41,051 nucleotides of DNA. It comes from a virus. Location of the stretch: positions 1 through 41,051 of the IMG/VR virus record IMGVR_UViG_3300029258_001195, one strand, 5' to 3'. The notes under the pieces are model-generated. The model ran no database searches. It worked only from the letters and a program-made list of their open reading frames with translations, and had not been told where the DNA came from. Shown piece by piece: positions 2,461 through 29,840 of this stretch (positions are counted from its first letter, which is position 1; each line of letters begins with the position of its first letter). The translations under genes were made by a program, and so were the position numbers.

Positions 2461-4388
2461 TGGACCACGGAGGCGAGGTCTACCGGAACGCCGCGTTCGC
2501 CGCGATGGAGCCCGACCCGGTCCTGACCGTTTCGGAATGGGCCGACGCCGAGCGGATGCTCTCGAGCCGGTCGTCGAACGAGCCGGGCCGGTGGCGCACC
2601 GCGCGGACCCCGTACCTCCGCGAGCCGATGGACGCTCTCTCGGCGACCTCGCGCGTCCGGTCCGTCGTGTTCATGAAGGGTGCGCAGATCGGCGCGACCG
2701 AGATGGGCAACAACTGGATCGGGTACTCGATCGCCCACGACCCGTGCCCGATGCTCGCGATTCTCCCGACCGTCGAGCTCGCGAAGCGGGGGAGCCGCCA
2801 GCGACTCGACCCGATGATCGCCGACTCGCCGGCGCTCGCGCGCAAGGTCTCGGATAAGCGGTCGCGCGACTCCGGGAACACGGTCCTCTCGAAAGAGTTT
2901 CCCGGCGGGATCCTCGTGCTCACCGGCGCGAATTCGGCGGTGGGTCTCCGCTCGATGCCAGCGCGGAAGGTGTTCGCCGACGAGCTCGACGCGTGGCCGG
3001 GTGACGTGGACGGCGAGGGCGACCCCGAGCTCATCGCCGAGCGCGCGATCCGGACCGCCGGCGGCCGCGCCAAGATCCTCAAGGTCTCGACGCCGACGAT
3101 CGCCGGCCGCTCGAGGATCGAGGTCGCCTACGACGCGAGCGACCGCCGGCGGTTCCACGTTCCGTGCCCGGAGTGTGGGGGGCTCCAGGTTCTCGTCTGG
3201 CGCAACGTCCGATGGGACCAGGGCGACCCGAGCTCCGTGGTCTACGCGTGCGAGCATTGCGGCGCCGCGATCGAGGAGTTCAAGAAGACCGAGATGCTCG
3301 AGGCCGGCGAGTGGATCCCGGAGGTCCCCGAGCTCTCGGACGTCGCGCGCGGCTACCACCTCTCGAGCCTCTACTCGCCGGTCGGGTGGTTCTCGTGGAA
3401 GGAAGCCGCGGCCATGTTCCAGGCCGCCGCCAAGAACCAGGACAAGCTCCGCGTGTTCGTGAACACGGTCCTGGGCGAGACGTTCGCGGAGAAGGGCGAG
3501 GCCCCGCCGTGGGAGCAGCTCTACAACCGCCGCGAGGAGTGGCGGAGCGGCGAGGTCCCAAGCGACCGCGCGGTGTTCCTGACGATGGGGGTCGATGTCC
3601 AGCACGACTACCTGCAGGGCGAGGTCGTCGCGTGGGGCCGGGAGTTCGAGACGTGGAGCGTGGATGCTCCGATCTTCTCGGGCGACACCGCGACCGACGG
3701 ACCGTGGGACGAGCTCGAGCGATACCTGCAGCGGACGTTCCCGCGCGAGGACGGCGTCGAGCTCCAGATCCTCCGCGCCGCGATCGACTCCGGGGACCAG
3801 ACCCAGGAGGTCTACCGCCGGGTCCGCGGGATGCGTCGGCCCGACCTCGTCATGGCGATCAAGGGCGACGAGGGGAAGCCGCAGCTCCTCTCGATCCCGC
3901 GCGCGGTGGACGTCACCTACGCCGGCCGCAAGGTCGCGCGCGGTCTCCAGCTCTGGCGCGTCGGTACTGATCTAGCGAAGGGGCAGCTGTACGGGTGGCT
4001 CCGCCAGGAGCAACCGACCGATCCCGACGAGGACGGATGGCCGACGGGGTGGGCGCACTTCCCGAACGACCGCGAGCAGGAGTGGTTCCAGCAGCTCACC
4101 GCCGAGCAGCTTGTCCCCCGAATCGTCCGCGGCTACCGTCGATACGTCTGGGAGAAGACCCGGGACAGGAACGAGGCGCTCGACTGCCGCGTCTACGCTC
4201 GAGCGGCCGCCGCCTCGATCGGGATCGACCGTATGACCGACGACGATTGGGACCAGCTCGAGAGCAACCTGCCGGCCGCCGGCGCCCCGAAGCCCGAGAC
4301 CCCGAAGCGGGGCCGCTCGAGCCGAGAGCGTGGCACCGGGAAGCGTCTCGGCTACCTTGACCGACGACGCCGCCAGCGCGGCCGGTGA
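2460..4388 (+). CDS. Terminase large subunit, GpA family
   Basis: A 642-residue packaging ATPase/nuclease. The N-terminal ATPase has a Walker-A-like KGAQIGATE near residues 71-79 and a Walker-B-like VFADELDAWP near 171-180. Two CxxC pairs, C236/C239 and C264/C267, form the zinc-binding insert typical of GpA terminases. The nuclease half begins near GVDVQHDYLQGE (about 376), with the expected metal-binding aspartate. Length matches lambda gpA (about 640). The ATG overlaps the small-subunit stop. A gpA-type terminase usually cuts at cos sites, so this phage probably has cohesive ends, although no cos site could be identified here. Confidence 0.95.
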   Translation: MDHGGEVYRNAAFAAMEPDPVLTVSEWADAERMLSSRSSNEPGRWRTARTPYLREPMDALSATSRVRSVVFMKGAQIGATEMGNNWIGYSIAHDPCPMLAILPTVELAKRGSRQRLDPMIADSPALARKVSDKRSRDSGNTVLSKEFPGGILVLTGANSAVGLRSMPARKVFADELDAWPGDVDGEGDPELIAERAIRTAGGRAKILKVSTPTIAGRSRIEVAYDASDRRRFHVPCPECGGLQVLVWRNVRWDQGDPSSVVYACEHCGAAIEEFKKTEMLEAGEWIPEVPELSDVARGYHLSSLYSPVGWFSWKEAAAMFQAAAKNQDKLRVFVNTVLGETFAEKGEAPPWEQLYNRREEWRSGEVPSDRAVFLTMGVDVQHDYLQGEVVAWGREFETWSVDAPIFSGDTATDGPWDELERYLQRTFPREDGVELQILRAAIDSGDQTQEVYRRVRGMRRPDLVMAIKGDEGKPQLLSIPRAVDVTYAGRKVARGLQLWRVGTDLAKGQLYGWLRQEQPTDPDEDGWPTGWAHFPNDREQEWFQQLTAEQLVPRIVRGYRRYVWEKTRDRNEALDCRVYARAAAASIGIDRMTDDDWDQLESNLPAAGAPKPETPKRGRSSRERGTGKRLGYLDRRRRQRGR

Positions 4389-4394
4389 GACGAG

Positions 4395-4613
4395 ATGGCC
4401 TACACCCAACAGCAGCTCGACGACCTCGAGGCCGCGATCGCCGAGGGCGCGCTCGAGGTCCAGTACGAGGACCGGCGCGTCCGCTACCGGAGCCTCGAGC
4501 AGATGGAGGCCGTCCGGGCGAAGCTCCGCGCGGCGCTCGGGCACACGAGCTCGGGGCCGAAGCGCATCCTCTCGAGCCCGTCCAAGTTCGGCCACACGAG
4601 CGGGGGCCACTAG
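4395..4613 (+). CDS. gpW-like head-tail joining protein
   Basis: A 72-residue protein between terminase and portal, the position and size of lambda gpW. The pattern of an N-terminal helix (QQQLDDLEAAIAEGA), a short strand pair (EVQYEDRRVRYR) and a second helix (SLEQMEAVRAKLRAAL) matches the gpW fold. In lambda, gpW plugs the portal and prepares the head for tail attachment. The C-terminal 20 residues are Gly/Ser-rich and probably disordered. Confidence 0.75.
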   Translation: MAYTQQQLDDLEAAIAEGALEVQYEDRRVRYRSLEQMEAVRAKLRAALGHTSSGPKRILSSPSKFGHTSGGH

Positions 4614-4614
4614 C

Positions 4615-6270
4615 GTGGGGCTCGCCGAGCGGATCGACCGCGCGATCCTGACCGTCGCGCCGGCGTGGGCCGAGTCGCGAGCTCGCGCCCGCGCGCGCGT
4701 CGAGGGTCTCGAGCTCGTCCGAGCTCGGATCGAGGCCCGGGCCGGCCGCGGCCGCCGGGGAGCTCGAGCGTTCGACGCCGCGACCAAGGACCGCCGGACC
4801 TCCGGATGGCTCGCGCCGTCCACGAGCGCGAACGCCGAAACCCGGGGCCACCTGGCGACGATCCGGAACCGCGCCCGCGAGCTCCGCCGGAACAGCGCGT
4901 GGGCGAGCAAGGCCGAGCGCATCCTGACCGCCCGGACGATCGGCGCCGGGTTCCAGCCGAAGCCGCGCACCGACGACGAGGGGCTCCGGAACGCGTGGCT
5001 CGAGCTCTGGCGCGAGTGGTCGGAGGACCCCCGCCAGATCGACGCCGACGGGCTCCTCGACTTCGCGGGGCTCCAGAACCTCGTAATGGGCAACGTAGTC
5101 GGAGCCGGGGAGGTTCTCGCGCGCCGGCGTCGCCGCCGCCCGAATGACCCGCTCGCGGTCCCGATGCAGATCCAGCTCCTCGAGGCCGACCACCTCGACG
5201 AGTCGCGCGACCTGTTCCGCAACCCCGAGGCCGGCGCTCGCGTCGTCCAGGGGGTCGAGTTCAACGGCCGCGGCCAGCGCGTCGCGTACCACCTGTGGCG
5301 CGACCACCCCGGCGACATCCTCACGACCGCGCCGCTCGCGCAGTCGGTTCGCGTCCCCGCGCGCGACATCGCCCACGTATTCCACGTCCTCCGCGTCGGC
5401 CAGGCGCGCGGGATCCCGTGGGGCGCGCCGGTGTTCCTCCGCCTCAAGGACTACGACGGGTTCGTCGATGCGGAGATGCTCAAGCAGGAGATCGCCGCGA
5501 CGTTCGTCGGGTTCGTCCACGACGCGGTCGCTCCGGACGAGGCCGGCCCGCTCGGGCGGCGCCTCGACGACCAGAACGGCGACGAGGTCAACCAGTTCGA
5601 GCCGGGCACCTGGCAACGCCTCAACGCCGGCGAGTCGATCACCTTCGGGAAGCCCGAAGCGTTCGACGCGCTCGAGGACTACGCGACGCTCACGCTCCGA
5701 GAGGTCGCGGCCGGGTACGGGCTCACCTACGAGGGGCTCTCGGGCGACTACTCCAAGGTCAACTTCACCAGCGGCCGGATGGGGTGGCTCGAGAACGACG
5801 CCGAGGTCGCGATCTGGCGCCGGTGCATGGTCATCCCGATGTTCTGCCGCCCGGTCTGGACGTGGTTCGTCGAGGCGGCCGTCGCCTCGGGAGCGTTCCG
5901 CGAGAGCCAGGCCGTGCAGGCGTCGTGGACCCCGCCGCGGCGGGAGATGCTCGACCCGGTGCGGGAGACGAACGCCGCGATCGCGCAGGTCCAGGCCGGG
6001 TTCCTCTCGCTCTCCGAGGCGGCCCGCCAGACCGGGCGGACCCGAGACGAGATCCTCCGCGAGCTCGCCGAGGACCGCGAGGAAGCCGAGCGGCTCGGGC
6101 TGGCACTGTCGGTGTTCTCGGGCTCGAGCTCGGGCCAGGCCGACGGCTCGCTCGAGGGCGGCCAGGACGACCCCGACGACGATCCCGCCGGCGAGCCGGA
6201 CCCCCGCGACCCGTCCACCGAGCAGGACGACGGGGAGCCCGAGCTCGACGAGGATTCCGAGGCCGCTTGA
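4615..6270 (+). CDS. Portal protein, lambda family
   Basis: A 551-residue protein expected to form the dodecameric portal at one head vertex. Recognisable lambda gpB-family blocks are NSAWASKAERILTARTIG near 93-110, LLEADHLDESRD near 188-199, FHVLRVGQARGIPW near 257-271 and the segment around GLSGDYSKVNFTS near 373-386. The C-terminal 50 residues are an acidic low-complexity tail. The start is a GTG one base after the gpW-like stop. The basic, Arg-rich first 50 residues are more variable than the rest, as usual in this family. Confidence 0.93.
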   Translation: MGLAERIDRAILTVAPAWAESRARARARVEGLELVRARIEARAGRGRRGARAFDAATKDRRTSGWLAPSTSANAETRGHLATIRNRARELRRNSAWASKAERILTARTIGAGFQPKPRTDDEGLRNAWLELWREWSEDPRQIDADGLLDFAGLQNLVMGNVVGAGEVLARRRRRRPNDPLAVPMQIQLLEADHLDESRDLFRNPEAGARVVQGVEFNGRGQRVAYHLWRDHPGDILTTAPLAQSVRVPARDIAHVFHVLRVGQARGIPWGAPVFLRLKDYDGFVDAEMLKQEIAATFVGFVHDAVAPDEAGPLGRRLDDQNGDEVNQFEPGTWQRLNAGESITFGKPEAFDALEDYATLTLREVAAGYGLTYEGLSGDYSKVNFTSGRMGWLENDAEVAIWRRCMVIPMFCRPVWTWFVEAAVASGAFRESQAVQASWTPPRREMLDPVRETNAAIAQVQAGFLSLSEAARQTGRTRDEILRELAEDREEAERLGLALSVFSGSSSGQADGSLEGGQDDPDDDPAGEPDPRDPSTEQDDGEPELDEDSEAA

Positions 6271-6302
6271 CTCGAGGCCGCCCGGGCGTTCGTCTTGAGC
6301 CC

Positions 6303-8378
6303 GTGAGAACCCTCGAGCTCCAGCAGCCTCGGCTCCAGTTCCGCGCGCTCGTCGCGCCGGACTCGTTCAACCCCGACGACCTCTCGTTCGAGGTCGTCTG
6401 GGCGACCGAGCGCGCGGTGTTCCGCGTGGACGAATTCGAGGGCTCGTTCGACGAGGTTCTCGGGCTCACCCCCGAGGAGGTCCGACTCGACCGCCTCAAC
6501 GCCGGCGCCCCGCTCCTCGACTCGCACCGCCAGTTCGGGCTCGAGAACCAGATCGGGGTCGTCGTCGAGGGCTCGGCCCGAGTGGACGGCACGCGCGGCA
6601 CCGCCCGCGTTCGGCTCCTCGACCACCCGTCGAACGAGCGCACGATCGCCGGCGTCCGCGACGGCGTGTTCTCCAACGTGTCCGTGGGGTTCCAGGTCTA
6701 CCGGTTCCGTGACGTCACGGAACGCGGCGACGAGCGGCGCGTCCTCCGGGCCGTCGATTGGGAACCTCACGAGCTAACCCTCCTTCCCGTTCCCGCAGAT
6801 TTCGACGCCGGCGCGCGCTCGAGGTCCGGGGACGTACCCACCTGCCTCGTCGAGCTCGAGGCGCACCCGACGAAAGCCAACATGGACCCCGAAGAAACGA
6901 CCACGACCCCGGACACCGGGGACACCCCGACCGAGACCCGCGGCGCGGGGCCGGCTCCGGCGCCGGCCGTCGAGCCGACCGGGGAGACCACGCCGGCGCC
7001 GACCTCGAGCGCGCATCGTGACGACGTCGACCTCGACGCCGTCCGTGCCGAGGCCGCTACCACCGAGCGCGACCGCGTCGCGACGATCACCCGCACGGCC
7101 GCGAGCCTCGGGATCGGCGCCGGCGACCAGCTCGTCCGCGGGCTGATCGAGGAGGGCACGCCGCTCGACGGCGACCAGGGGGCTCGAGCTCGCCTGCTCC
7201 AGCGCGCCGCGCTGGCCGACGAGGAGCTCGAGACCCGCGGCGCGAACCGTGTCACGGTCGGCCGCGACGAGGGCGAGAAGACCGTCGCCGGTATCGAGGG
7301 CGCGCTCCTGGCGCGCTGTTCGTACCGCGAGCTCGACCCCGAGACCGGCTTCCACACCAAACCGGTGCAGCTCGACGACGCCGCGCGCAGCTTCAGCGCG
7401 CTCCGCGTCCTCGACCTGGCCAAGCACGTCATGCGCGCGCACGGCCAGCACCGCGTGGACCGGATGCCCGACCACGAGGTCGCGAAGCTCGCGCTCCGTG
7501 GTCTCGGGGCGTCGACCTCGGACTTCCCGAACCTCCTCGCCAACGTCGGCGCGAAGCGCCTGCAGATGGGGTTCGCGAACGAGCCGCGTACGTTCCTCCC
7601 GCTCGTCTCGTTCACGCGCGTCGCGCAGGACTTCAAGACGATGAGCTCCCCGGCGTTCGGCGGCGGTCCGTCGCTCGCGGAGATCGAGGAGCTCGGCGCC
7701 TACACGATGACCGCGCTCGGCGAGCGTGGTGAGACCTACCAGGTCAAGAAGTACGGTCGGATCTGGGGGTACTCGTGGGAGGCGATGCTGAACGACGACC
7801 TGTCGGCGTTCGACCGCGTCCCCGCGCAGATGGGCGCCAACGCCTCGCGCGTCGAGAGCGACGCCGTCTGGACCGACCTCATCATCGGGAACGTGGTCAT
7901 GGGGGACGGCGTCGCGCTGTTCAACAACGCGAACCACGCGAACGACGAGGCCGGCTCCACGCCGATCGCGATCGCCGGGCTCGGCACGCTCCGCGAGAAG
8001 ATGCGGATCCAGACCGGGATCGACGGCGAGCGGCTCAACCTGTTCCCGTCGAACCTCGTTGTCGGTCCGCGCGACGAGACCCTCGCGCAGCAGTTCACGA
8101 GCATGATCACGCCGGACAGCGGCGGCAACGTGAACCCGTTCCAGTCGGCGTTCCAGAACGTCATCGTCGAGAACCGCCTGCAGGCGTTCGACGGCTGGTA
8201 CATGGCGTCCGCCGCGACGCAGACCGAGACCCTCGAGGTCGCGCGCCTCGCCGGCATGGACGGCCCGTCGATCGAGACCCGGAACGGGTGGGACGTCGAT
8301 GGTGTGGAGGTCAAGGTGCGCCACGTCTTCGGCGCCATGATCCCCGAGTACCGCGGCTGGCAGCGCGCCGCCAACTAG
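6303..8378 (+). CDS. Prohead protease / major capsid protein fusion
   Basis: A 691-residue fusion. Residues about 1-180 are an HK97/Mu-type prohead serine protease, with the likely catalytic His75 in LLDSHRQ and Ser127 in NVSVGF, followed by the family block WEPHELTLLPVPAD. A Thr/Pro-rich linker (about 200-245) leads through a helical delta-like segment to a Mu gpT-like capsid domain (about 380-691), with marks such as GETYQVKKYGRIWGYSWE and ALFNNANHAN. Self-cleavage during maturation is expected. The start is uncertain: GTG 6303 is preferred, but TTG 6267 overlaps the portal stop and is in frame. The open frame upstream of these starts overlaps the portal gene and is not coding. Confidence 0.88.
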   Translation: MRTLELQQPRLQFRALVAPDSFNPDDLSFEVVWATERAVFRVDEFEGSFDEVLGLTPEEVRLDRLNAGAPLLDSHRQFGLENQIGVVVEGSARVDGTRGTARVRLLDHPSNERTIAGVRDGVFSNVSVGFQVYRFRDVTERGDERRVLRAVDWEPHELTLLPVPADFDAGARSRSGDVPTCLVELEAHPTKANMDPEETTTTPDTGDTPTETRGAGPAPAPAVEPTGETTPAPTSSAHRDDVDLDAVRAEAATTERDRVATITRTAASLGIGAGDQLVRGLIEEGTPLDGDQGARARLLQRAALADEELETRGANRVTVGRDEGEKTVAGIEGALLARCSYRELDPETGFHTKPVQLDDAARSFSALRVLDLAKHVMRAHGQHRVDRMPDHEVAKLALRGLGASTSDFPNLLANVGAKRLQMGFANEPRTFLPLVSFTRVAQDFKTMSSPAFGGGPSLAEIEELGAYTMTALGERGETYQVKKYGRIWGYSWEAMLNDDLSAFDRVPAQMGANASRVESDAVWTDLIIGNVVMGDGVALFNNANHANDEAGSTPIAIAGLGTLREKMRIQTGIDGERLNLFPSNLVVGPRDETLAQQFTSMITPDSGGNVNPFQSAFQNVIVENRLQAFDGWYMASAATQTETLEVARLAGMDGPSIETRNGWDVDGVEVKVRHVFGAMIPEYRGWQRAAN

Positions 8379-15265: not shown

Positions 15266-16399
15266 GTGGCTCCCCTCGCCAACGCCCCCGAGGACGAGGA
15301 GATCCTCCGCGACGCGCTCCGCGTCCGGGTGGACGGGCGGACCTTCACGGGCTGGACCGAGCTCGAGCTCGACCGCTCGCTCGAGGCCGCGACCGGCTCG
15401 TTCCGGCTCCAGTTCCCGACCGACCTGGCGCGGCCGATCCCGGTGCTCCCGTACCAGCGGGTCGAGGTCTCGTTCGAGGACGACCTGGTCGCGACCGGCT
15501 ACGTGGACACCCTCGACGCGACGAGCTCGAGGGGCTCGCGGACCGCGACTATCTCCGGGCGGGACGTTACCGCCGACCTCGTGGACTCCTCCGCACTCGA
15601 GCCGTTCGAGCTCGCCGGCGTGAACCTGTTCGAGCTCGCCACCCGCCTCGCCGATCCGTTCGGGATCGACGTCGTGGCGCGCGCGACCAACATCCTCGAG
15701 CCGTTCCCGACGTTCCGGATCACCCCGGGCGAGAAGGCGTTCGCGGCGCTCGAGCGCGCGGCCCGGCTCCGCGGGGTCCTGATCTTCACGACCGGCGACG
15801 GCCGGCTCGCGCTCGAGGCCCCGGGGATCGCCGGGCTCGCCGGCGTGCCGCTCGTGGAGGATCCGGAGAAGGGCAACATCCTCGAGGCGAAGCTCGCGTT
15901 CTCGAGCGTGGACCGGTTCCAGACCTACCTCGTCCGCGGCCAGGCCGTCGGCAACGCCGACGCGTTCGGGCTCGTCGCTTCGGCGGTGGAGGGCACCGCG
16001 ACCGACCCCGAGGTCGATCGCTACCGGCCGCTTCTCGTGGTCGCGCCGCAGACCGTGTCGATCGAGAGCGCCGAGGAGCTCGCGCGGTGGGAGGCGACCG
16101 TCCGCGCCGCTCGAGCCGCGCGCGTCGAGGTCCAGGTCCAAGGGGTGCGCCAGGAGCCGCGCCCGGGCTCGCCGCTCTGGCGCGTGAACCAGCGCGTCCG
16201 GACCCGGATCCCGACGCTCCAGGTAGACGCGCAGCTCCTCGTCAATCGCGTCCGGTACTCGAGGAGCCGCGGGAGCGGGACGCGCACGACGCTCGAGCTC
16301 GTCCGACGCGACGCGTACGATCCGAAGCCCGCGATCGACCCGGGCGAGGATCCGCTCGCCGCGCTGTTCGGCGGGGAGACCGTGGACCCCGAGCGATGA
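15266..16399 (+). CDS. Baseplate hub protein (Mu gpP-like)
   Basis: A 377-residue protein in the position of Mu gp44/gpP, the hub at the end of the tube. The opening LRVRVDGRTFTGWTELEL followed by LDRSLEAATGSFRLQF is the characteristic first domain. The middle has ATISGRDVTADLVDSSA and a helical ITPGEKAFAALERAARLRG. GTG start at 15266, seven bases after the previous stop; its TGA overlaps the next ATG. It is expected to carry the spike and form a central ring. Confidence 0.88.
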   Translation: MAPLANAPEDEEILRDALRVRVDGRTFTGWTELELDRSLEAATGSFRLQFPTDLARPIPVLPYQRVEVSFEDDLVATGYVDTLDATSSRGSRTATISGRDVTADLVDSSALEPFELAGVNLFELATRLADPFGIDVVARATNILEPFPTFRITPGEKAFAALERAARLRGVLIFTTGDGRLALEAPGIAGLAGVPLVEDPEKGNILEAKLAFSSVDRFQTYLVRGQAVGNADAFGLVASAVEGTATDPEVDRYRPLLVVAPQTVSIESAEELARWEATVRAARAARVEVQVQGVRQEPRPGSPLWRVNQRVRTRIPTLQVDAQLLVNRVRYSRSRGSGTRTTLELVRRDAYDPKPAIDPGEDPLAALFGGETVDPER

Positions 16400-16962
16400 G
16401 CAACCCGCAGAACGTCATCCGGCGACTACTGCAGCCGATCCTCGACCGGATCGCCGCCGGGATCGCGCGCGGCTACGTCCACCTCGTGCGGAACAGCGAA
16501 GGACTCCAGACCCTCCAGCTCGAGCTCCTCCGCGCCGAGCTACGCGACGGGGTCGAACACTTCCAGCCGTACGGGTTCGAGGCCGTGCCGCTCGAGGGCG
16601 CCGAGGCGCTCGTGCTCCACGTCGGCAACAGCCGCGACCACCCGATCGCCGCGGTCGTCACCGACCGCCGGCACCGTCCCACCGATGGCACCGCCGGCAT
16701 GGTCGGGCTCTACGATGACCAGGGCCAGGTCGTGCGGATCTACCGCGACCGGATCGAGCTCGCGAGCTCGACGCGGGTCCAGGTCGTCGCGCCGACGATC
16801 GACCTCGACGGGGACGTGGAGGTCGCCGGGAACGTCACCGCGACCGGGGAGATCGACGACACCGCCGGCACGCTGGCGGCGCTCCGGACGGCGTACAACG
16901 CCCACACGCACGTCTCGGCGGGTCCGGGCAACCCGACCAGCGGCCCGACCCCCACCGCCTAG
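16396..16962 (+). CDS. Baseplate spike protein (Mu gp45-like)
   Basis: A 188-residue membrane-piercing spike. An OB-fold-like first part (VPLEGAEALVLHVGNSRDH, then MVGLYDDQGQVVRIYRDR) is followed by short strand repeats (ATRVQVVAPTIDLDGDV-like, NVTATGEIDD) forming a beta-helix tip. The C-terminal AYNAHTHVSAGPGNPTSG includes HTH, matching the HxH motif that holds an iron ion at the spike apex in Mu-type spikes. ATG overlaps the hub stop (ATGA). Confidence 0.88.
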   Translation: MSNPQNVIRRLLQPILDRIAAGIARGYVHLVRNSEGLQTLQLELLRAELRDGVEHFQPYGFEAVPLEGAEALVLHVGNSRDHPIAAVVTDRRHRPTDGTAGMVGLYDDQGQVVRIYRDRIELASSTRVQVVAPTIDLDGDVEVAGNVTATGEIDDTAGTLAALRTAYNAHTHVSAGPGNPTSGPTPTA

Positions 16963-16995: not shown

Positions 16996-17226
16996 GTGAA
17001 CCGGCGCCCGGTCGAGGTCGAGGTTTGGGCCGAGGAGGGGCTGGTGGCTCTCACCCGAGACCGGGCGGGGGCGCCGCCCGAGTGCCTCGTGCTCTCTCCG
17101 TCCGAGACCCTCGAGGTCGCCGACAAGCTACGCCGGGCGGCGCGGCGCCTCGAGCGCGCCCGGAGCAGGACCCGGAAGGGCCGCGAGAGGTTCCAGAATG
17201 GCCGATATTGCGATCCGACTGAGTGA
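16996..17226 (+). CDS. Small basic hypothetical protein
   Basis: A 76-residue protein inserted between the spike and gp46 genes, where Mu has no gene. It has a strand-like first part (VEVEVWAEEGLVALTRD) and a basic helical second half rich in Arg. GTG start. The last 29 nt overlap the gp46 gene. Not recognised; function unknown. A real gene is likely, but the start could be later. Confidence 0.5.
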   Translation: MNRRPVEVEVWAEEGLVALTRDRAGAPPECLVLSPSETLEVADKLRRAARRLERARSRTRKGRERFQNGRYCDPTE

Positions 17227-17686
17227 GGCGGGGGCGGACCTCGAGATCGTCGCCGACGACCTGGCGCGCGACGAGGGGCTCCGGCCGGCCGTCCTGATTT
17301 CGCTGTTCTCTGACGCTCGAGCTCCCGAGGGGGCCGAGCTCCCGGGCGGACCGGACACCGACCCGCGGGGGTGGTGGGCGGACCTCGACCGCGAGCGCGG
17401 GATCGGCTCGACCCTGTGGGTCGAGGGCCGGGGCAAGATCACGACCGAGCTACTCGAGCGGATGCGCGCCGCCGCTGCGGCGTCGCTCGCGTGGCTCACC
17501 GAGGACCAGGTCGCCGAGCTCGTCGAGGTCACGGCGACGCGGCGGGGTGGTTCCTCGAGCTCGACCGTTGACCTCGAGGTCCGGATCACGCGCGGGACCG
17601 CGACCCGCTACGGCCAGCTGTGGGCCGGCGTGGAGGACTACGACCTGACTCTCGAGGGTCTCCGGGTGGCTCTCCTGTTCCGATAG
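17198..17686 (+). CDS. Baseplate protein (Mu gp46-like)
   Basis: A 162-residue protein of the GP46 family, corresponding to T4 gp25-type wedge components. Family marks are RPAVLISLFSDARA near 29-42, GGPDTDPRGWWADL near 50-63 and RGIGSTLWVEGRGKIT near 66-82. It helps to join the sheath to the wedges. ATG embedded in the end of the upstream small gene, with GAGAGG before it. Confidence 0.88.
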   Translation: MADIAIRLSEAGADLEIVADDLARDEGLRPAVLISLFSDARAPEGAELPGGPDTDPRGWWADLDRERGIGSTLWVEGRGKITTELLERMRAAAAASLAWLTEDQVAELVEVTATRRGGSSSSTVDLEVRITRGTATRYGQLWAGVEDYDLTLEGLRVALLFR

Positions 17687-17696
17687 GCTCGACCCC

Positions 17697-18749
17697 ATGC
17701 CGTTCGTTGTTCCCACCCTCGCGCAGCTCCGCGCCCGTGTTCGTGCCGACATCGAGAACCGCCTCGGCGTCGGGCCGCTCCTCGACGACTCCGTCCTGGC
17801 CGTGTTCGCGGAGGTCGTCGCCGGCCAGACCCACCTGCTCCACGGGCACCTCGAGTACCTCGCGCGCCAGGTCATCCCCGACACCGCGGACAGCGACTTC
17901 CTCGTCCGGTGGGCCAACCTGTTCGGCGTCATCCGGATCGACGCGACGCCGGCGAGCGGGGACGTCACGTTCACGGGCACCGACGGGACCGCGATCCCGA
18001 CGGGCACGGTCATCCGCCGGTCGGATGGAGCCGACTACGCGACCACCGCCGACGCGACGATCTCCGGGGGCTCCGCGGTCGTCAACGTGCAGGCCGAGCT
18101 CGCCGGCACCGCCGGCAACGCGCCCGCGGCGACGAGCCTCACGCTCGTCTCGCCGATCGCCGGCGCGAACGCGACCGCGACCGTGGACACGGGGCTGACC
18201 GGCGGCGTCGAGACCGAGAGCGACGCGTCGCTCCTCTCGCGGCTCGTCGAAGTTCTCCAGACACCGCCGATGGGCGGGAGCGAGGCCGACTACGTCATCT
18301 GGGCGCGCGAGGTCGCGGAGGTCACGCGCGTCTTCGTGAAGGGCGCGCAGTTCGGGCTCGGCACGGTCGGCGTCGCAATCATGACCGACAACGCTACCGG
18401 CGGCCCGATCCCCGGGGCGGGTAAGGTCGCGGAGGTCCAGGCCGCGATCGACCTCGAGAAGCCCGTGACCGCGTCGGTCACGGTGTTCGCGCCGACCGCG
18501 GTGAACCTCTCCCCGACGATCCAGCTCGTCGGCGCCGATACCGCCGACATCCGGGCCGCGATCGAGGAGGCGCTCGCCGACCTCGTGCTCGAGCTCGGGG
18601 CGCCCGAGACGACGCTGCCGCTCTCCAAGATCCGCGAAGCTATCTCCAACGCGCCCGGGGAAGAGGACCACGTCCTGACCGCGCCGGTCGCGGACGTCAC
18701 GACCACCGCGACGCAGATCCACCAGGTCGGCACCGTCACGTTCGTCTAG
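17697..18749 (+). CDS. Baseplate J-like protein (Mu gp47-like)
   Basis: A 350-residue wedge protein. Typical elements are the N-terminal PTLAQLRARVRADIENRLG, the segment HLEYLARQVIPDTADSDFL, the beta-rich middle (ASGDVTFTGTDGTAIPTGTV) and the C-terminal IREAISNAPGEEDHVLTAP. Length is close to Mu gp47 (about 360). It forms the wedge frame with gp46 and gp48, encoded on either side. Confidence 0.92.
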   Translation: MPFVVPTLAQLRARVRADIENRLGVGPLLDDSVLAVFAEVVAGQTHLLHGHLEYLARQVIPDTADSDFLVRWANLFGVIRIDATPASGDVTFTGTDGTAIPTGTVIRRSDGADYATTADATISGGSAVVNVQAELAGTAGNAPAATSLTLVSPIAGANATATVDTGLTGGVETESDASLLSRLVEVLQTPPMGGSEADYVIWAREVAEVTRVFVKGAQFGLGTVGVAIMTDNATGGPIPGAGKVAEVQAAIDLEKPVTASVTVFAPTAVNLSPTIQLVGADTADIRAAIEEALADLVLELGAPETTLPLSKIREAISNAPGEEDHVLTAPVADVTTTATQIHQVGTVTFV

Positions 18750-18756
18750 CTCCACG

Positions 18757-21234
18757 ATGGAACCGACGCCCAACTACCTGCTGCTCGGGGACCGCAACAT
18801 GGAAGGCCGCGCGCCGGGCGCCGGTCTCCCCGCCGACTACGTCGGGCCGCACCCGAACGTCCGGTCGTGGAACGTGATTACGTCGAACCTCGACGCCGAG
18901 CTCGCCTACCTCGCGAACAACAAGAGCACCAGCGGGTTCTTCGGGTTCGGCCCGGAGCTCTCGTTCGGGACCGCCATCCGCAACTTGAACGGCGGCCGGC
19001 CAGTCACGGTGCAGAAGACCGCGGTCGAGCAATCGTCGGTGTTCCCGTTGTCGGGGATGTTCAACGATTGGGCGATTCAGAACTACACGAACGACCTGCG
19101 CGAAGCTGTGGACGTGAAGGCGGGGCTCGTCGAGTCGGGCGGGTTCTTCGACACGCTCCAGTCGCGCGGGGAGACGACCGACCTGCGCGGCGTGGTCTTC
19201 TCGATCGGGGCACTCGAGTCTCAGAACGCCGACGGGTCGGTGACAGTCGCGACGATGCGCGCGCAGACCGAGGCGTACATCGCCTACGTTCGCGAGCAGG
19301 CGGCCGCGAACGGGCTGAGTCGGCTGCCCGCGTGGGTTCCCGTGCCGTGGGTTCTCATCCTCCCGCCGCGCGACCATATCGACACGACCGCGCCGAACGT
19401 GGACGTCGTCCGCGAGGCGCTCCTCGAGATCGCCGCCAACGACCCGCACGTCCACACGGTCGATGGCGACGGGCTCGAGGTCGGGCTGAGTGTCCAGAAC
19501 ACGTCCGACTACATCGGCGTCGCGCCGCTCGAGCTCGGGGACCGCGCGGCCGAGCTCCTCGGCGAGTACCTGGCGCCGCTCCCGTTCTTCGCGCCGGTGC
19601 CGACGTTCCTCGAGCTTGAGAGCAGCGCGCCCGACCTCGACGGCAAGACCGACCGCTACGGGGGCCAGGCGCTCGACCTCCTCCCCCAAGGGCTCCTGTG
19701 GAACAAGCGCCGCGACACGAACCTGCGCGCCGTGATGGAGGCGTTCGTCCGTGAGTTCGCGCGCGTGGACTGCCGCGGCCGCGACCTGGCGCGCGAGTCG
19801 CTCCCGAGCTCGGCCGTCGAGCTCCTCGCCGATTGGGAGCGCGTGCTCGGGATCCCCGGCGGACCCGACCCGCTCCCCGGGTTCTACCTCGACGCGACCG
19901 ACGAGGGCGGCGACGTCCGCGCGTTCGCGGGCTCGCCGGACTGGCCGAACGCGTCGGACTTCCCCGAGATCGAGTTCACTCTGACCGCGTGGGTCCGCGT
20001 GAAATGGGGCCGGACCGGTGGGGCGAACGGGTGGCTCGACGCGGTCGGCGCGTTCTCGAGCGCGCAGCACCACCTGTTCCGGCGCTTCTCCTCGGGCACG
20101 AACCGGGGGCTCCGGATCCTGTTCCAAGCCGACCACGGGAACACGACCACGCTGACCGGCGGCGCCGTGGCGCCGGCGCTCTCCGTGACCGTCGAGCTCG
20201 GCGACTCGACCGGGTTCCTCCCGTTCCAGATCGCGGCCGACGATGTCGGCGCGCTGGCGGGGACCTTCCCGATCGTCGAGGCGCTCGGCTCCACCGACGA
20301 GGACGGCGTCTCGATCGCGCGCGAGTGGGCGATGGTGTCCGTTACCTACCGCGGCAAGGACGGCCCGGCCGGCGCCTCGAGCGGCGCGCTCCAGTTCTTC
20401 GTCAACGGCCAGCAGATCGGGCCGGACCTCGAGGTCCCCCCGGGCGACCGGATGCTCGAGCCCGACGCCGACGAGGGGATCACGGTCGCGCAGGACGGCT
20501 CGTTCGACCCGTGGCTCGGCGACGTGGACCAGGTCCGCGCCTACGCGCGCGTCCTCCCGCCCGACGAGCTCGCGGTGCTCTACAACGACGGGGCCGGTCG
20601 TGAGATCCACGGGAACGAGGACGCGATCGTCTACGGGTGGGAGTTCGACCTCGAGCAGGGCGGCGTCACACCCGACGCGGTCGGCGCCTACACCGGCGGG
20701 GACCTCACGCTCGGCGCCGAGGCCGCGATCTCGACCAAGCCCGACTACGGGCCGGTCCTGCCCGACCTCGTGTGCCCGAGCGCGCTCGCGGCGACCGAGA
20801 TCCTCCGCCGGTTCGAGGCGGCCGCGAAGCTCTCGTTCCAGGGGTCCGGCGCCGGCCAATCGGAGGCGTTCTTCGTCGAGCTCGCCGCGTCGCTCGGGTT
20901 CTCCGTCACGGTGGACGGGAACGAACCGTTCACGCCGGGAAGCGTCGCCGGCGACTCGATCACCCAAGGGCTGTGGGTCTTCGTCTGGGAGGTCCACGCG
21001 CCCGAGATAAACCCGGTCTTCTTCTCCGCTGGCGAGTCGGGCGCCGGCGAGCCGCTCGTCGCCGACGACGCGACGCCGCTCGTTTGCGGGCTCGAGGAGC
21101 ACAAGCCCGCCCACACTCTCGTGTTCTTCCGTTTCGACCTCGACTACACCGGGCACGCTCCGTGGAGCTCGACCGGCCCGGCCGCCGCCGGCGCCGTCGC
21201 GGTCGCGCCGTCCGTTCTCGCCACCCCGCTATAG
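18757..21234 (+). CDS. Chimeric baseplate protein: SGNH-like domain + gp48 split by a LamG-like domain
   Basis: An 825-residue protein in the Mu gp48 position, four times the usual size of about 200. Residues 1-275 resemble sialate O-acetylesterase-type SGNH hydrolases, with NYLLLGDRNMEGRA at the nucleophile block and FGFGPELSFGTAI as a second block. The usual catalytic Ser is Arg13 and the usual C-terminal DxxH reads DYIG. Residues about 299-368 are the first half of gp48 (ELLADWERVLGIPG). About 405-610 looks like a LamG/concanavalin-type jelly roll (EFTLTAWVRV, GALQFFVNGQQI, VDQVRAYARVL). About 672-825 is the second half of gp48, ending CGLEEHKPAHTLVFF. It is probably a wedge protein displaying glycan-binding domains. 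Confidence 0.8.
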   Translation: MEPTPNYLLLGDRNMEGRAPGAGLPADYVGPHPNVRSWNVITSNLDAELAYLANNKSTSGFFGFGPELSFGTAIRNLNGGRPVTVQKTAVEQSSVFPLSGMFNDWAIQNYTNDLREAVDVKAGLVESGGFFDTLQSRGETTDLRGVVFSIGALESQNADGSVTVATMRAQTEAYIAYVREQAAANGLSRLPAWVPVPWVLILPPRDHIDTTAPNVDVVREALLEIAANDPHVHTVDGDGLEVGLSVQNTSDYIGVAPLELGDRAAELLGEYLAPLPFFAPVPTFLELESSAPDLDGKTDRYGGQALDLLPQGLLWNKRRDTNLRAVMEAFVREFARVDCRGRDLARESLPSSAVELLADWERVLGIPGGPDPLPGFYLDATDEGGDVRAFAGSPDWPNASDFPEIEFTLTAWVRVKWGRTGGANGWLDAVGAFSSAQHHLFRRFSSGTNRGLRILFQADHGNTTTLTGGAVAPALSVTVELGDSTGFLPFQIAADDVGALAGTFPIVEALGSTDEDGVSIAREWAMVSVTYRGKDGPAGASSGALQFFVNGQQIGPDLEVPPGDRMLEPDADEGITVAQDGSFDPWLGDVDQVRAYARVLPPDELAVLYNDGAGREIHGNEDAIVYGWEFDLEQGGVTPDAVGAYTGGDLTLGAEAAISTKPDYGPVLPDLVCPSALAATEILRRFEAAAKLSFQGSGAGQSEAFFVELAASLGFSVTVDGNEPFTPGSVAGDSITQGLWVFVWEVHAPEINPVFFSAGESGAGEPLVADDATPLVCGLEEHKPAHTLVFFRFDLDYTGHAPWSSTGPAAAGAVAVAPSVLATPL

Positions 21235-21239
21235 CAGCC

Positions 21240-22466
21240 ATGCATCGGATCGACACCGCCACCGCCGTCAATTCCCTGTTCGTCGAGAAGGACCCGGTCC
21301 TCGGACTCGCGCCCACCGAGGTCTCCGGCGACTGGCTGAACGCGGTGCAGGAGGAGATCGTCTCGACGATCGAGGGTTCCGGGCTCGTGCTCGACAAGGC
21401 CGACAACACGCAACTGCTCCAGGCGATCGACGCGCGCGTGGCGCCCGGCGTGTTCCGCAAGAACGCGCTGATCAACGCGGCGTTCTCCGTGAACCAGCGG
21501 TTCCCCACCGCGGTCGTGACCGTCGGCGTCGCGTACACGTCGGCGACGACCGAGCCGTACTACGTGGACCGGTGGAGGTTTCAGATCCCGACCGGCGCCG
21601 GCGACCTCCGCGTGCTCCAAGACGAGCACCCGCTCGACGTGACCGCGGAGACGCTCCCGCAGAACCTCGTCGCGCCGCAGTTCTTCCTCAACCTCAACGC
21701 CGTCGCCGGATTCGCGAACGAGCCGCCGACGATGTCCCAACGGATCGAGGACGTCCGTACGTTCGCGGGGCTGAAGGTCGCGCTCTCGTTCTACGCGCGG
21801 ATCAACGCGGGCAGCACGCAGGTCGTCCCCAAGCTGATTCAGGACTTCGGGAGCACCGGCTCGTCGCCCGTCACGCTCACCGGCTCGCCGATCACGCTGA
21901 CGAGCTCGTGGAACCGGTACACCGCGTCGTTCACGCTCGGAAGCCTCGCCGGCAAGACGGTCGGGCTGTTCACCGGTGCGCCCGACCACTACCTCGAGGC
22001 GCTCCTCGAGTTCGATCAATCCGCGACGTTCGACGTGGACGTCTCGCACGTCCAGCTCGAGCGCGGCGTGCTCGCGTCCGAGTTCGAGGCGGTGCGCGAA
22101 GCCGACGAGCTCCTCTCGTGTCTCCGGTACTACGAAAAGAGCACGAACGGGGACCACGCGCCGTCGGTGTCCGAGGTCGTCTCGACCGTGAACGGCGCCT
22201 ACGTCCCCGCGTCGGGGCTCGTCAACAAAGGCGCGAACCGACCCTTCAAGGTCGTGAAGCGCGACGAGCCGACGATGACCTGGTACACGGGCGGGGTGGG
22301 CGCCTCGACGCCCGACCGGATCCTGTGGGGCGGCGTCGTGCGAACGGTCGCCGGCACCGAGGCGAGCTCGCGGAGCGCGTACGCGACGGGCTCGCCGGAA
22401 TGCACCACGGCTCCCGCGTCTCTCGACGAGTACGAATGCAATTGGGAGGCCGACGCGGAGCTCTGA
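21240..22466 (+). CDS. Tail fibre / receptor-binding protein 1
   Basis: A 408-residue fibre after gp48, the Mu fibre position. It opens with an attachment motif found in many prophage fibres (VSGDWLNAVQEEIVSTIEGS, then NTQLLQAID) that recurs at 27678. Residues about 75-285 look like a CBM4/9-type beta-sandwich, with KNALINAAFSVNQRF, YYVDRWRF and VQLERGVLASEFEA. The block ELLSCLRYYEKS then starts a C-terminal tip domain (about 285-408). It probably binds host glycan. Confidence 0.75.
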   Translation: MHRIDTATAVNSLFVEKDPVLGLAPTEVSGDWLNAVQEEIVSTIEGSGLVLDKADNTQLLQAIDARVAPGVFRKNALINAAFSVNQRFPTAVVTVGVAYTSATTEPYYVDRWRFQIPTGAGDLRVLQDEHPLDVTAETLPQNLVAPQFFLNLNAVAGFANEPPTMSQRIEDVRTFAGLKVALSFYARINAGSTQVVPKLIQDFGSTGSSPVTLTGSPITLTSSWNRYTASFTLGSLAGKTVGLFTGAPDHYLEALLEFDQSATFDVDVSHVQLERGVLASEFEAVREADELLSCLRYYEKSTNGDHAPSVSEVVSTVNGAYVPASGLVNKGANRPFKVVKRDEPTMTWYTGGVGASTPDRILWGGVVRTVAGTEASSRSAYATGSPECTTAPASLDEYECNWEADAEL

Positions 22467-23272: not shown

Positions 23273-23719
23273 ATGGCTAACTTCTGGTACCTCGAGGGGC
23301 TCCTCGCGCTGTTCAAGGGCGAGATCGACCTGGAGAACGACACCCTCCGCGTGCTCCTCGTGATGACGAACACGACGGCCGACACCGACACGACGGCCAA
23401 GTTCGTCGGCGACGTCGGCACGCTCGACGAGCACGACGGCACGCCGTACGCGCGCCAGACCCTCGTGCAGTCGCCGCCCGCGATCGACGCCCCGAACAGC
23501 CGCGTCGAGCTCCCGGCCGCCGCGACCGTGTTCTCGAGCCTCGGCGTCGGGACGCGCGACGTGCAGGCCGCGCTCCTCTACAAGTTCGTGACCGTGGACG
23601 GGGACAGCCCGCTCCTCGTCTACTTCGATTCGGGCGGGTTCCCGTTCTCGCCGAGCGGCGCCGACCTGACGATCAACTGGAACGCCGAGGGCGCCGTCCA
23701 GATCCGGAGCGGCACCTGA
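23273..23719 (+). CDS. Phage structural protein of unknown function
   Basis: A 148-residue beta-rich protein without signal or membrane segment. It has the pattern ALFKGEIDLENDTLRVLLVM then TPYARQTL then DVQAALLYKF, which I associate with small phage proteins encoded near fibres, but no domain name is certain. It is separated from upstream genes by a 112-nt spacer holding nothing recognisable apart from a purine-poor leader, and its stop overlaps the sulfatase start. Probably a virion or fibre-associated protein. Confidence 0.5.
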   Translation: MANFWYLEGLLALFKGEIDLENDTLRVLLVMTNTTADTDTTAKFVGDVGTLDEHDGTPYARQTLVQSPPAIDAPNSRVELPAAATVFSSLGVGTRDVQAALLYKFVTVDGDSPLLVYFDSGGFPFSPSGADLTINWNAEGAVQIRSGT

Positions 23720-25053
23720 TGAGAAGCCCGGTCCCCGCGCTCCTCCTGTCGGTGTGCGGGGCCGTGGCTCTCGAGGCGTTCCAGTTCGAGCCCGGCCCCG
23801 CGCTCCCGCTCCGCCCGCTCGACGTCGTCCTGGTGGACCTCGACGACGTCGGGACGTTCGACCTCGAGGACGACCCGACGGTCGCGACGCCGAACCTCGA
23901 CGCATTCCGGGCGAGCTCGGCGCGGTTCGCGCGCGCGTACACGACCGGACCGGTCTGCAGCGCGTCTCGGGTCTCGGCTCTCCTCGGGGTCTACTCGAGG
24001 CGCCAGGGGATCGGGAGGATCATCAAGAAGGGCGACCCGAACGACGTCGAGCAGGACGCGCCGACGCTCGCGGACGCGTTCACGCGCGCCGGCTACCGGA
24101 CCTGCAAGGTCGGGAAATGGCACCTCTCGGCCGGCGTCGAGTACCCGCTCGAGGACGCGCCCGAGCTCCTCGGGTTCGAGTTCGCGCGCGCGGTCGCGTC
24201 GCACAACCTCGGGGCCACCGCCGGCGCCGGTACCTACTTCTCGTGGGGCCGGATCGACGACGGGGTCGAGACCGTGACGACCGAGTACGCGACCGCCGCC
24301 CAAGCTCGAGCGGCTCGGGAGTGGTGGCTCGAGCACGAGGGCGAGCCGCGGTTCCTGTGGCTCTCGTTCACCGCCGCCCACGCGCCGTTCCACGAGGCGC
24401 CGGCCCCGTACTACACCGGGCCGCCGACGGCCGGGGACGGGCGCCTCGAGTTCGAGAGCATGATCGAGGCGCTCGACGACCGGCTCGGCACCGTGCTCGA
24501 GGTTCTCGATCCGTGCACGACGCTCGTGGTCGTCTCGTGCGACAACGGCTCGGCCATGCCGCCGCCGCCGCCGGTGCCCGTGTTCGCGAAGGCCGGCGCC
24601 CCGGGAGTCACCGAGCTCGCGATCGAGACCCCGCTCTACGTCCGCGGCCCCGGCATCCGTCCGGGAGCTCGTCGCCAGCTCGTCTCCGTCCTCGACCTTT
24701 GGGCGACGCTCGAGGAGCTCCTCGGGCTCCCGATCCCGGCCCCGACCGACGGGGTCTCGTTCGCCGGCGCGCTCGTGCCGTGGAGCTCGGCGCCGCCGCG
24801 GGAGTGGCTGTTTGCGGAGCGGTTCTTCCCGAACTACGCGCCCGAGCTCGGCGAGCCCGGGCCGGCGGGGTTCAACGCGCGCGAGCGCGCGATCGTCCGC
24901 GCCGACGGGTGGAAGCTCCGCGTGGATGAGACGGGCGGGGCCGAGGCGTTCCGCGGGCTGTTCCACCTCCCGAGCGACCCGCTCGAGCTCGCGCCCGTGG
25001 ACGACCCGGCGCTCGAGCTCGAGCTCCAGGCGCTCCTCGACCTGTTCCCGTAG
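23719..25053 (+). CDS. Sulfatase (type I, formylglycine-dependent)
   Basis: A 444-residue sulfatase that should hydrolyse sulfate esters, probably on a sulfated glycan. The expected blocks appear in order: metal Asp42/Asp43 in VVLVDLDDVG, TPNLDAFRASSARFARAYTT, the formylglycine core C80-S-A-S-R84 (CxAxR), AGYRTCKVGKWHL with active-site Lys and His, LSFTAAHAPF, SCDNG, and TPLYVRGPGIRPG. Cys80 must be converted to formylglycine by a host enzyme, and Ala in place of the common Pro is within known variation. A hydrophobic N-terminus (about 5-20) may be a signal peptide. The ATG overlaps the previous stop. A sulfatase among fibre genes is very unusual; it may trim the host coat. Confidence 0.92.
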   Translation: MRSPVPALLLSVCGAVALEAFQFEPGPALPLRPLDVVLVDLDDVGTFDLEDDPTVATPNLDAFRASSARFARAYTTGPVCSASRVSALLGVYSRRQGIGRIIKKGDPNDVEQDAPTLADAFTRAGYRTCKVGKWHLSAGVEYPLEDAPELLGFEFARAVASHNLGATAGAGTYFSWGRIDDGVETVTTEYATAAQARAAREWWLEHEGEPRFLWLSFTAAHAPFHEAPAPYYTGPPTAGDGRLEFESMIEALDDRLGTVLEVLDPCTTLVVVSCDNGSAMPPPPPVPVFAKAGAPGVTELAIETPLYVRGPGIRPGARRQLVSVLDLWATLEELLGLPIPAPTDGVSFAGALVPWSSAPPREWLFAERFFPNYAPELGEPGPAGFNARERAIVRADGWKLRVDETGGAEAFRGLFHLPSDPLELAPVDDPALELELQALLDLFP

Positions 25054-27677: not shown

Positions 27678-28733
27678 ATGGACCGTATCGCCGCACCCGG
27701 CAACGTCTCCGGGCTGTTCGCCGAGGGCAACCCGTTCCAGGGGGTCCCGGCCACGATCGTCTCGAGCCCGTGGCTCAACGGCGTGCAGGAGGAGCTCCTC
27801 TCGATCATCGAGGCCGCCGGCGTGACGCCGAACCAGGCCGCGACGAACCAGGTTCTCGCCGCGCTCCTGACCCTGTTCGGGACGTCCGACGACGCTCTCC
27901 TGGCGACGGCCGCGGCGCCGCTCGAGAGCGGGCACCCGCTCCCGGACTCGCGCCATCCGATCGTTCTCCTCGCGCAGTCGGGGGTCTGGGCCGCCGGCGT
28001 GACGACCGAGGCGCCGACGCAGGGCACGAGCTCGGGCGGTTCCGGCCCCGGTGCCGCCGACAACACGACCGAGGGGAACGAGTACGACACGAGCCTGTAC
28101 CCGGGCGACGCGTGGCCGTTCACGGTTCCCAGCGCGCTCATGGCGCACGACACCGCCGGCGCGTTCCCGGCCGCGCGCCTCGGGACGAACGTCAACTTCT
28201 ACCGGCACGGGTTCCTCCTCCCCGCCGGGCTGTTCGTGAACGGCGCGCGCCTCGAGGTCGAGCTCTCGGGCACGATCGAGGGCAGCGAAGCCGCGCGCGT
28301 GTTCGAGGCGATCCTCGAGCCCGACTACGACCCGGACGGCGCGTACACGAACGCCGAGGCGTTCCCGTTCCATTGCGGCCCGATCGCCGCGCCGTCGGGC
28401 GAGGAGGCGTTCCGGTTCACCGCCGCGTTGACGGTCCTCGGGTTCGACGACGGCACGAACGAGTGGATCGTCCTGGCCGACGCGACGTTCCGGACCGGCA
28501 ACACCGAGATCGGCAACCCGACCGAGTACCAGCGCACGTACGAGCGCCGGATCCCGATCGCGAAGGCCGACCTCGAGCTCGAGGACACGCTGTGGTCGGT
28601 GCGGTTCAAAACCGACGACTTCGGCTCGACCCTCGGCGACGAGGGGAACAGCAGCGGCTCGACGCAGGACGGCTCCGCGTCGGTGATCACCGCTCGCCAC
28701 TACTCCGTCACGCTCTACCCCGGGGGACACTAG
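27678..28733 (+). CDS. Tail fibre / receptor-binding protein 2
   Basis: A 351-residue protein whose first 65 residues match the start of the fibre at 21240 (WLNGVQEELLSIIEAAG then NQVLAALL), so both probably attach to the same baseplate site. A Gly/Ser-rich hinge (about 115-130) leads to a different C-terminal beta-rich domain (about 140-351). It may be an alternative or additional fibre. The neighbouring hydrolase-like gene starts at its stop. Confidence 0.65.
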   Translation: MDRIAAPGNVSGLFAEGNPFQGVPATIVSSPWLNGVQEELLSIIEAAGVTPNQAATNQVLAALLTLFGTSDDALLATAAAPLESGHPLPDSRHPIVLLAQSGVWAAGVTTEAPTQGTSSGGSGPGAADNTTEGNEYDTSLYPGDAWPFTVPSALMAHDTAGAFPAARLGTNVNFYRHGFLLPAGLFVNGARLEVELSGTIEGSEAARVFEAILEPDYDPDGAYTNAEAFPFHCGPIAAPSGEEAFRFTAALTVLGFDDGTNEWIVLADATFRTGNTEIGNPTEYQRTYERRIPIAKADLELEDTLWSVRFKTDDFGSTLGDEGNSSGSTQDGSASVITARHYSVTLYPGGH

Positions 28734-29840
28734 ATGCCCGGCCCGTACGTCACCTTCACGCGCGCGACCACCGACGAGCCGGGCGCGACCGCCGGCGAGC
28801 ACTACTACGCCGCGCACCCGTCCGGACTCTGCCGCCTCCTCGTCTGGCGGCCGTCGGCGTCGTTCACGAACGCGCCGTGCCTCGTCATCCTCAAGGGCGG
28901 GGACTACGTCACCTACGGGGACGACGAGACGAGCCCGGAGACGATCGACGCCGACGTCGCGCAGATCGCCGAGGACTTGAACGCCGCCGGGTGGGCGGTG
29001 GTCTCCGTGGACGCTCCGCCGTCCGCGAACACCGGCAACGTGCTCGACGAGGTCACGCCGTTCGCGTACTTCCCCGAGCACGAGAAGCAGATCGGGCACG
29101 CCGTCGCGTACCTCAAGGCGCACGCCTCGGCGGTGGACGATATCTCGCTCGGCGCTCGAGCCGTGGACCTGTGGGGCTCGGGGAACAGCATCGGGCGGAA
29201 CCGGATCGCGGTGCTCGGGTTCGGCTCGGGCGCGACGACCGCGCTCTGGCTCTCGGCGCTCCCGTCAACGATGTTCCCCGCGCTCCCGGGCAACATCGCG
29301 CCGACGATCGACCCGTACGTCGCGCGGTTCTCGCACCGCCCCGCGGCCGTGGTCGCGATCGGCGCGACCGCCGACTGGACGCAGTTCGACGTGAACGCGG
29401 CCGGCTCGGGGGTCTACGCGAACGACCTCCACCCGCACTTCCTCCGCACGAGGACGAACCGGCTGTGGTCCACGCTCGAGCGGCGCTACAAGCTCGCGGC
29501 GAGCCCGTACTTCTGGATCGTCCAGGGGTTCACGCAGAACCGGACCATGCCCGTCTACGGGGTCTGGCCGAGCTCGAGCGACCCGGACGGGACGAGCCTC
29601 GCGCCCGGCGACTTCGTCCCCGGCGAGCTCAAGAACGACACCGCGGGGAACAAGGCGTACCGCGACCCGGCGCACGACTTCGTCGGGAACGCGATGGAGA
29701 TCGCGATCGCCGCGAACATGGCGCCGACGTCGAAGGTCACGTGGGGCAGCATCGCCGACAACCCGACGACGCCCGCGCTCACCGGTACCGCGCTCCACGC
29801 CGACGTGAAGGCGTGGCTCGAAACGACCGTCGGAGTCTGA
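28734..29840 (+). CDS. Alpha/beta-hydrolase-fold protein, possibly inactive
   Basis: A 368-residue protein resembling esterase/acetyl-xylan-esterase-type alpha/beta hydrolases: LVILKGGDYVTYGDDE occupies the oxyanion block (usually HGGG), and IAVLGFGSGATTALW lies at the nucleophile elbow. The elbow GxSxG reads G162-F-G-S-G, so the usual Ser is Gly164 with Ser165 one place later. It therefore probably lacks, or uses a shifted, nucleophile. No signal peptide. A GGGGGA ribosome site precedes the ATG, which abuts the fibre stop. It may be a fibre-associated glycan binder or an altered esterase. Confidence 0.6.
   Translation: MPGPYVTFTRATTDEPGATAGEHYYAAHPSGLCRLLVWRPSASFTNAPCLVILKGGDYVTYGDDETSPETIDADVAQIAEDLNAAGWAVVSVDAPPSANTGNVLDEVTPFAYFPEHEKQIGHAVAYLKAHASAVDDISLGARAVDLWGSGNSIGRNRIAVLGFGSGATTALWLSALPSTMFPALPGNIAPTIDPYVARFSHRPAAVVAIGATADWTQFDVNAAGSGVYANDLHPHFLRTRTNRLWSTLERRYKLAASPYFWIVQGFTQNRTMPVYGVWPSSSDPDGTSLAPGDFVPGELKNDTAGNKAYRDPAHDFVGNAMEIAIAANMAPTSKVTWGSIADNPTTPALTGTALHADVKAWLETTVGV

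Follow-up and report, generated by a model that had tools for sequence, protein, structure and literature searches.

The DNA analysed here, called the window below, is the whole 41,051-base stretch of virus record IMGVR_UViG_3300029258_001195. It carries a contractile tail module of the Mu type (sheath, tube, tape measure and hub) in which genes of the gp45, gp46, gp47 and gp48 types are followed by a tail fibre gene in this order (Table 1). The gp48-type gene lies directly 3′ of gp47, with the fibre gene next to it, and encodes a protein of 825 aa; the usual size of gp48 is ∼200 residues. The protein matches Pfam family PF10076 (Phage_Mu_Gp48) with an E-value of 4e-20 (72.5 bits, cut-off 37.4) and the baseplate wedge family PHROG_203 with an E-value of 8e-39, and is a baseplate wedge protein (BW3) of the Mu gp48 family. 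The fibre gene, for which the profile match begins at residue 202 of a longer frame (20637–22466), encodes the partner expected to dock on gp48. A second virus (L002), from a different metagenome record, encodes a protein that is 51% identical over its whole length and has all the domains in place; the gene order of this virus is collinear with that of the window virus from terminase to sulfatase. One more locus, L001, comes from nearly the same virus as the window (99.98% over 14.5 kb).

Table 1. Baseplate genes of the window and parts of the enlarged gp48-family protein
Feature	Coordinates	Strand	Basis
gp45-type spike gene	16396..16962	+	PF06890
gp46-type wedge gene (BW1)	17198..17686	+	Profile matches
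gp47/Baseplate_J wedge gene (BW2)	17697..18749	+	Profile matches
Enlarged Mu gp48-family baseplate wedge protein, 825 aa	18757..21234	+	Profiles, alignment
SASA/SGNH carbohydrate-esterase fold, nucleophile Ser replaced, residues 1–278	18757..19590	+	Pfam, Foldseek/VIA, motif check
gp48 N-terminal helical half, residues 299–372	19651..19872	+	Profile, alignment, AlphaFold, Foldseek
LamG/ConA-like jelly roll, residues ∼372–610	19870..20586	+	Pfam Laminin_G_3, model, fold matches
C-terminal part of insert, residues 611–672, conserved in L002	20587..20772	+	Sequence comparison, model
gp48 C-terminal half, residues 673–794	20773..21138	+	Profiles, alignment
Segment aligned with Mu gp48 fibre-docking loop 133–155, residues 751–773	21007..21075	+	Alignment, counted by hand
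Tail fibre gene, N-terminal region common to phage tail fibres	21240..22466	+	Profile match

The match to PF10076 falls into two collinear parts (profile positions 3–63, then 71–149). In an alignment of 26 rows, 24 of which are uninterrupted viral gp48 proteins, the first half ends at a conserved W-E-R-x-x-G-[LI]-P-D motif and the second resumes at a conserved Cys, residue 673; the insert is thus confined to residues ∼373–672. The point of insertion, continuous in 30 other viral gp48 loci, is placed by AlphaFold in a loop between two predicted helices, and its equivalent in Mu gp48 lies between D73 and C74 (by alignment, residue numbers counted by hand). The AlphaFold model of the first half was matched by Foldseek to Mu gp48 (9ki1_a) over 68 columns with an rmsd of 2.6 and 37% identity. 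The second half, modelled with pLDDT of ∼50–84, is recognized by its sequence profile match to gp48, and the model of the protein gives no confident relative arrangement of the domains (pTM 0.37). An earlier note, made from the sequence alone, had claimed that two halves of gp48 are separated by ∼300 residues that include a jelly roll; this claim is borne out by the Pfam matches in order, by structure prediction and by the family alignment, which makes the interruption exact between G-[LI]-P-D and the conserved Cys. The Mu wedge contains a single gp48, to which a trimeric fibre is attached through residues 133–155 (PMC11915804), and the segment of the window protein aligned with this loop is similar in L002.

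Within the 825-aa protein, Laminin_G_3 (PF13385) matches residues 521–606 (E-value 2.7e-7, 31.3 bits, cut-off 27.6). When the insert was scored by itself we observed 34.8 bits for the window virus and 19.2 bits, below the cut-off, for L002. Modelled alone, after alignment to 16 LamG domains taken from further viral contigs, the insert forms a β sandwich at moderate confidence (pTM 0.59, mean pLDDT 54); the LamG rows of this alignment favour a jelly-roll model, while the Pfam match is independent of them. A joint fold of gp48 and insert computed with LamG rows was discarded, as these rows were misplaced in the alignment. The core of the insert (model residues 8–246, protein residues ∼372–610) matches ConA-like domains with VIA Z of up to 15.5 and 160–180 residues aligned, among them CBM40 domains of sialidases, lectin domains of trans-sialidases and pentraxins, and also many viral ConA-like lectins. 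The predicted jelly roll between the halves was thereby recovered, though not over the entire insert: the jelly roll proper ends near residue 610. The fold matches would point to a fold and not to sialic acid or another particular ligand; judging from the fold, the module may bind sugar. LamG-like folds serve also as structural or protein-binding domains.

AlphaFold confidence is low in the C-terminal end of the insert. This end contains a stretch, VYGWEFD, that by eye resembles the usual first strand of LamG. A circular permutation of LamG was considered but found no support, since the insert tail scored no better than shuffled sequences against a profile built from the canonical first segment.

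While the earlier note had been right about a LamG-like domain in gp48, it overlooked a third domain, which occupies the N-terminal 278 residues. The Pfam SASA profile (PF03629, cut-off 24.8) matches this domain of L002 with 46.3 bits over nearly the whole profile; the window virus's own domain reaches 21.6 bits, below the cut-off. Its AlphaFold model, of poor quality over the first 60 residues, gave Foldseek matches to the SGNH esterases OatA, EstL5 and PAF-AH, and VIA-align ranked it with acetylxylan esterase 1zmb (Z 12.5), then with CE2, CE20, SIAE and NanS. No esterase was among the results of a sequence search of solved structures with the SGNH domain; the esterases come from the fold search only. 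The nucleophile motif of SASA is GQSNM, and at its position both viruses have GDRNM, i.e. Arg in place of the nucleophile Ser. No GxS motif was found in the N-terminal domain of either protein, and the C-terminal block of the domain has no histidine common to both viruses, hence no conserved candidate for the catalytic His. For these reasons we consider the domain a relative of the SASA fold and do not class it as an active esterase; as far as sequence motifs can tell, it is probably a pseudo-esterase that has lost catalysis.

Between the window virus and L002 the added modules are less conserved (44% identity for the SGNH domain and 45% for the insert) than the gp48 halves (62% and 75%), the tube (75%), the sheath (67%) and the fibre (62%). 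The tape measure (39%) and the small subunit of the terminase (42%) have diverged strongly as well. Faster divergence of the added modules would fit a host-facing role of these domains; weak constraint would fit too.

The reading that we consider likely is that the protein is a BW3 with two accessory modules, which would still be assembled into the baseplate, still dock the fibre and, with the modules outward, bind surface polysaccharide as an aid to adsorption. Despite the insert, the gp48 halves would form one fold and occupy the usual wedge position; as in Mu, there would presumably be one copy in each wedge and six in each baseplate. The SGNH/SASA-derived module, its catalytic residues apparently lost, and the LamG-like module would both face outward and grip surface polysaccharide, weakly in each copy and with six copies acting together; such binding would help keep the baseplate on the cell and perhaps stabilize the contact that triggers contraction. 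Since the segment aligned with the fibre-docking loop is kept, and a fibre gene whose N-terminal region is conserved follows, the modules look added rather than substituted. The earlier note proposed that the LamG-like module would place an adhesin on the baseplate; this is plausible by analogy, with an experimental precedent in Gp119 of Bacillus phage Vp4 (PMC11406892). More tentatively, BW3 could be at once a wedge part and a receptor-binding protein independent of the fibre; a former esterase, now serving as a lectin, would join the inserted jelly roll, and binding to the surface would be linked mechanically to the wedge that sets off contraction.

The main rival, possible though on the whole rather unlikely, is that the added domains are structural and, with no binding of sugar, make a larger wedge that holds an additional fibre or clamps fibres to the sheath. 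There are examples of such use: an insertion domain of wedge protein gp31 of A-1(L) holds the long tail fibre (PMC10966104), and in XM1, loop 80–106 of gp17 and its C-terminus hold spikes (PMC10457771). Moreover, another protein of the window, at 27678–28733 (+), has an N-terminal region of the fibre type and needs a docking place. Yet both added modules have carbohydrate-related folds, and they diverge faster than the fibre, while a docking site is expected to follow its partner. A quite improbable alternative is that the N-terminal domain has kept enzymatic activity, as a deacetylase whose active site is rearranged and which trims surface polysaccharide at adsorption, with LamG as the targeting module. 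The SGNH/SASA fold itself speaks for activity, as does a fold match to 9h4u, a relative of CE20 whose triad is unconventional; SGNH deacetylases also occur in phage tailspikes and fibres. The Ser-to-Arg replacement in both viruses, along with the missing GxS motif and shared C-terminal-block His, speaks against it. Finally, long spurious frames do occur around gp48 in GC-rich genomes, but the notion that the 825-aa frame is an assembly chimera or a shadow frame and the real gp48 a normal 200-residue protein is contradicted by the conserved architecture in L002, whose full-length homologue at 51% identity in another metagenome, together with the near-identical one of L001, argues against an assembly artefact, and the gp47 stop just before the 825-aa start codon means that the N-terminal part is no shadow of gp47, so we regard this notion as extremely improbable.

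We surveyed 112 gp48 loci (32 viral and 80 bacterial) that could be reached by pattern and profile, using separate profiles for each half. The insert is present in two of them, in L002 and in the window virus, for which L001 was counted. In the rest, 0–8 residues lie between the halves, except for 50 residues in L091; we rejected this locus as a decorated gp48, as its gap is within a 205-aa frame of canonical length and is read as a partial profile hit. A distance of ∼900 nt between the gp47 stop and the N-terminal half of gp48 was observed in the window virus and L002 only, compared with at most 120 nt in the other measurable loci (three were not measurable). Among the 112 loci the N-terminal domain thus appears restricted to the lineage of these two viruses.

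In bacteria, samples of 392 and 398 genomes (∼790), drawn from the phyla to which a Phycisphaerales and a Pseudomonas genome belong, contained no gp48 split within the same frame; all matches above the cut-off but one were single and full. A two-part match in contig 19 of genome G325 was rejected as an insert (the parts are in different frames ∼30 nt apart), as were three of the longest frames (622, 460 and 373 aa), which are shadow frames of gp47. Searches with either the SGNH domain or the insert as the only query retrieved only the window virus and L002 from viral contigs and nothing from a phage collection, and a search with the full-length 825-aa protein found nothing in the bacterial genomes. 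The architecture is known from two independent viruses only.

Another enlarged gp48 was observed at locus L012 (IMGVR_UViG_3300046542_000453, 2910–4598, +), where the protein runs ∼370 residues beyond the fold to the end of the contig and a weak hit to CBM_4_9, at 14 bits, stays below the cut-off. As far as such a match goes, this is perhaps a second way of decorating gp48.

Compared with Mu gp48 (BW3; PF10076, PDB 9ki1), the window protein has both halves of the fold, the gene order and the segment aligned with the docking loop; Mu gp48, 180 aa in 9ki1, lacks both the N-terminal SGNH domain and the insert. A parallel in principle is Vp4 Gp119, a BW3 protein of 831 aa with two CBMs absent from relatives, which binds cells (PMC11406892). 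Like the window protein, it is a wedge protein enlarged by two carbohydrate-related domains, but it is a BW3 of the A511 type from a Herelleviridae phage and its modules are CBM16- and Xyn10B-like, with neither LamG within gp48 nor SGNH. Binding to lactococcal hosts is known for Dit, tail and neck proteins that carry CBMs (PMC6669499). The ‘evolved Dit’ of siphophages likewise has a carbohydrate-binding module inside a conserved baseplate protein, though the tails are non-contractile and both core protein and module are different. The gp31 insertion domain of A-1(L) and the gp17 loop of XM1 are also additions to wedge proteins of simple contractile baseplates; they hold fibres or spikes and are no LamG jelly rolls, and gp31 is the counterpart of BW2. 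With SASA/SGNH esterases (PF03629; 1zmb, SIAE, CE20) the N-terminal domain shares the fold and, within the nucleophile motif, the G-x-x-N-M-x-G frame; it differs by Arg at the nucleophile, by the lack of a conserved candidate His and by its fusion to a wedge protein.

The window protein joins a conserved core with carbohydrate-related modules, which is what characterizes CBM-decorated (‘evolved’) baseplate proteins. Given Vp4 Gp119 and ‘evolved Dit’, the principle is already known; new here is the combination of gp48 with LamG-like and SGNH domains, not known from other phages. In the open-access literature, searched for gp48 insertions (DUF2313/YmfQ) and for LamG together with baseplate, this architecture is unreported. 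It would extend the principle of the ‘evolved baseplate protein’ to the Mu gp48 family, i.e. to the wedge protein that docks the fibre; it points to the loop after the N-terminal helical half of gp48 as a site tolerating a 300-residue domain, and it offers a likely pseudo-esterase as a putative binding module of the virion.

Several other genes of the window deserve mention. The ORF at 5295–8378 (+) matches phrog_4523 (fused major head and protease) from residue 344 with an E-value of 8e-158; with this head ORF near a baseplate module of the Mu type, the genome is mosaic for head and tail. After the protein of 27678–28733, with its fibre-type N-terminus, there is an ORF (28734–29840, +) that looks like an α/β hydrolase by eye and gave no match in a Pfam search. 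A gene of the sulfatase family (23719–25053, +; Pfam E-value 1e-25, CSASR motif) lies in the tail/lysis region and is kept at the same place in the L002 virus with 51% identity. A phage sulfatase beside fibre genes suggests that sulfated polysaccharides occur in the host or the habitat.
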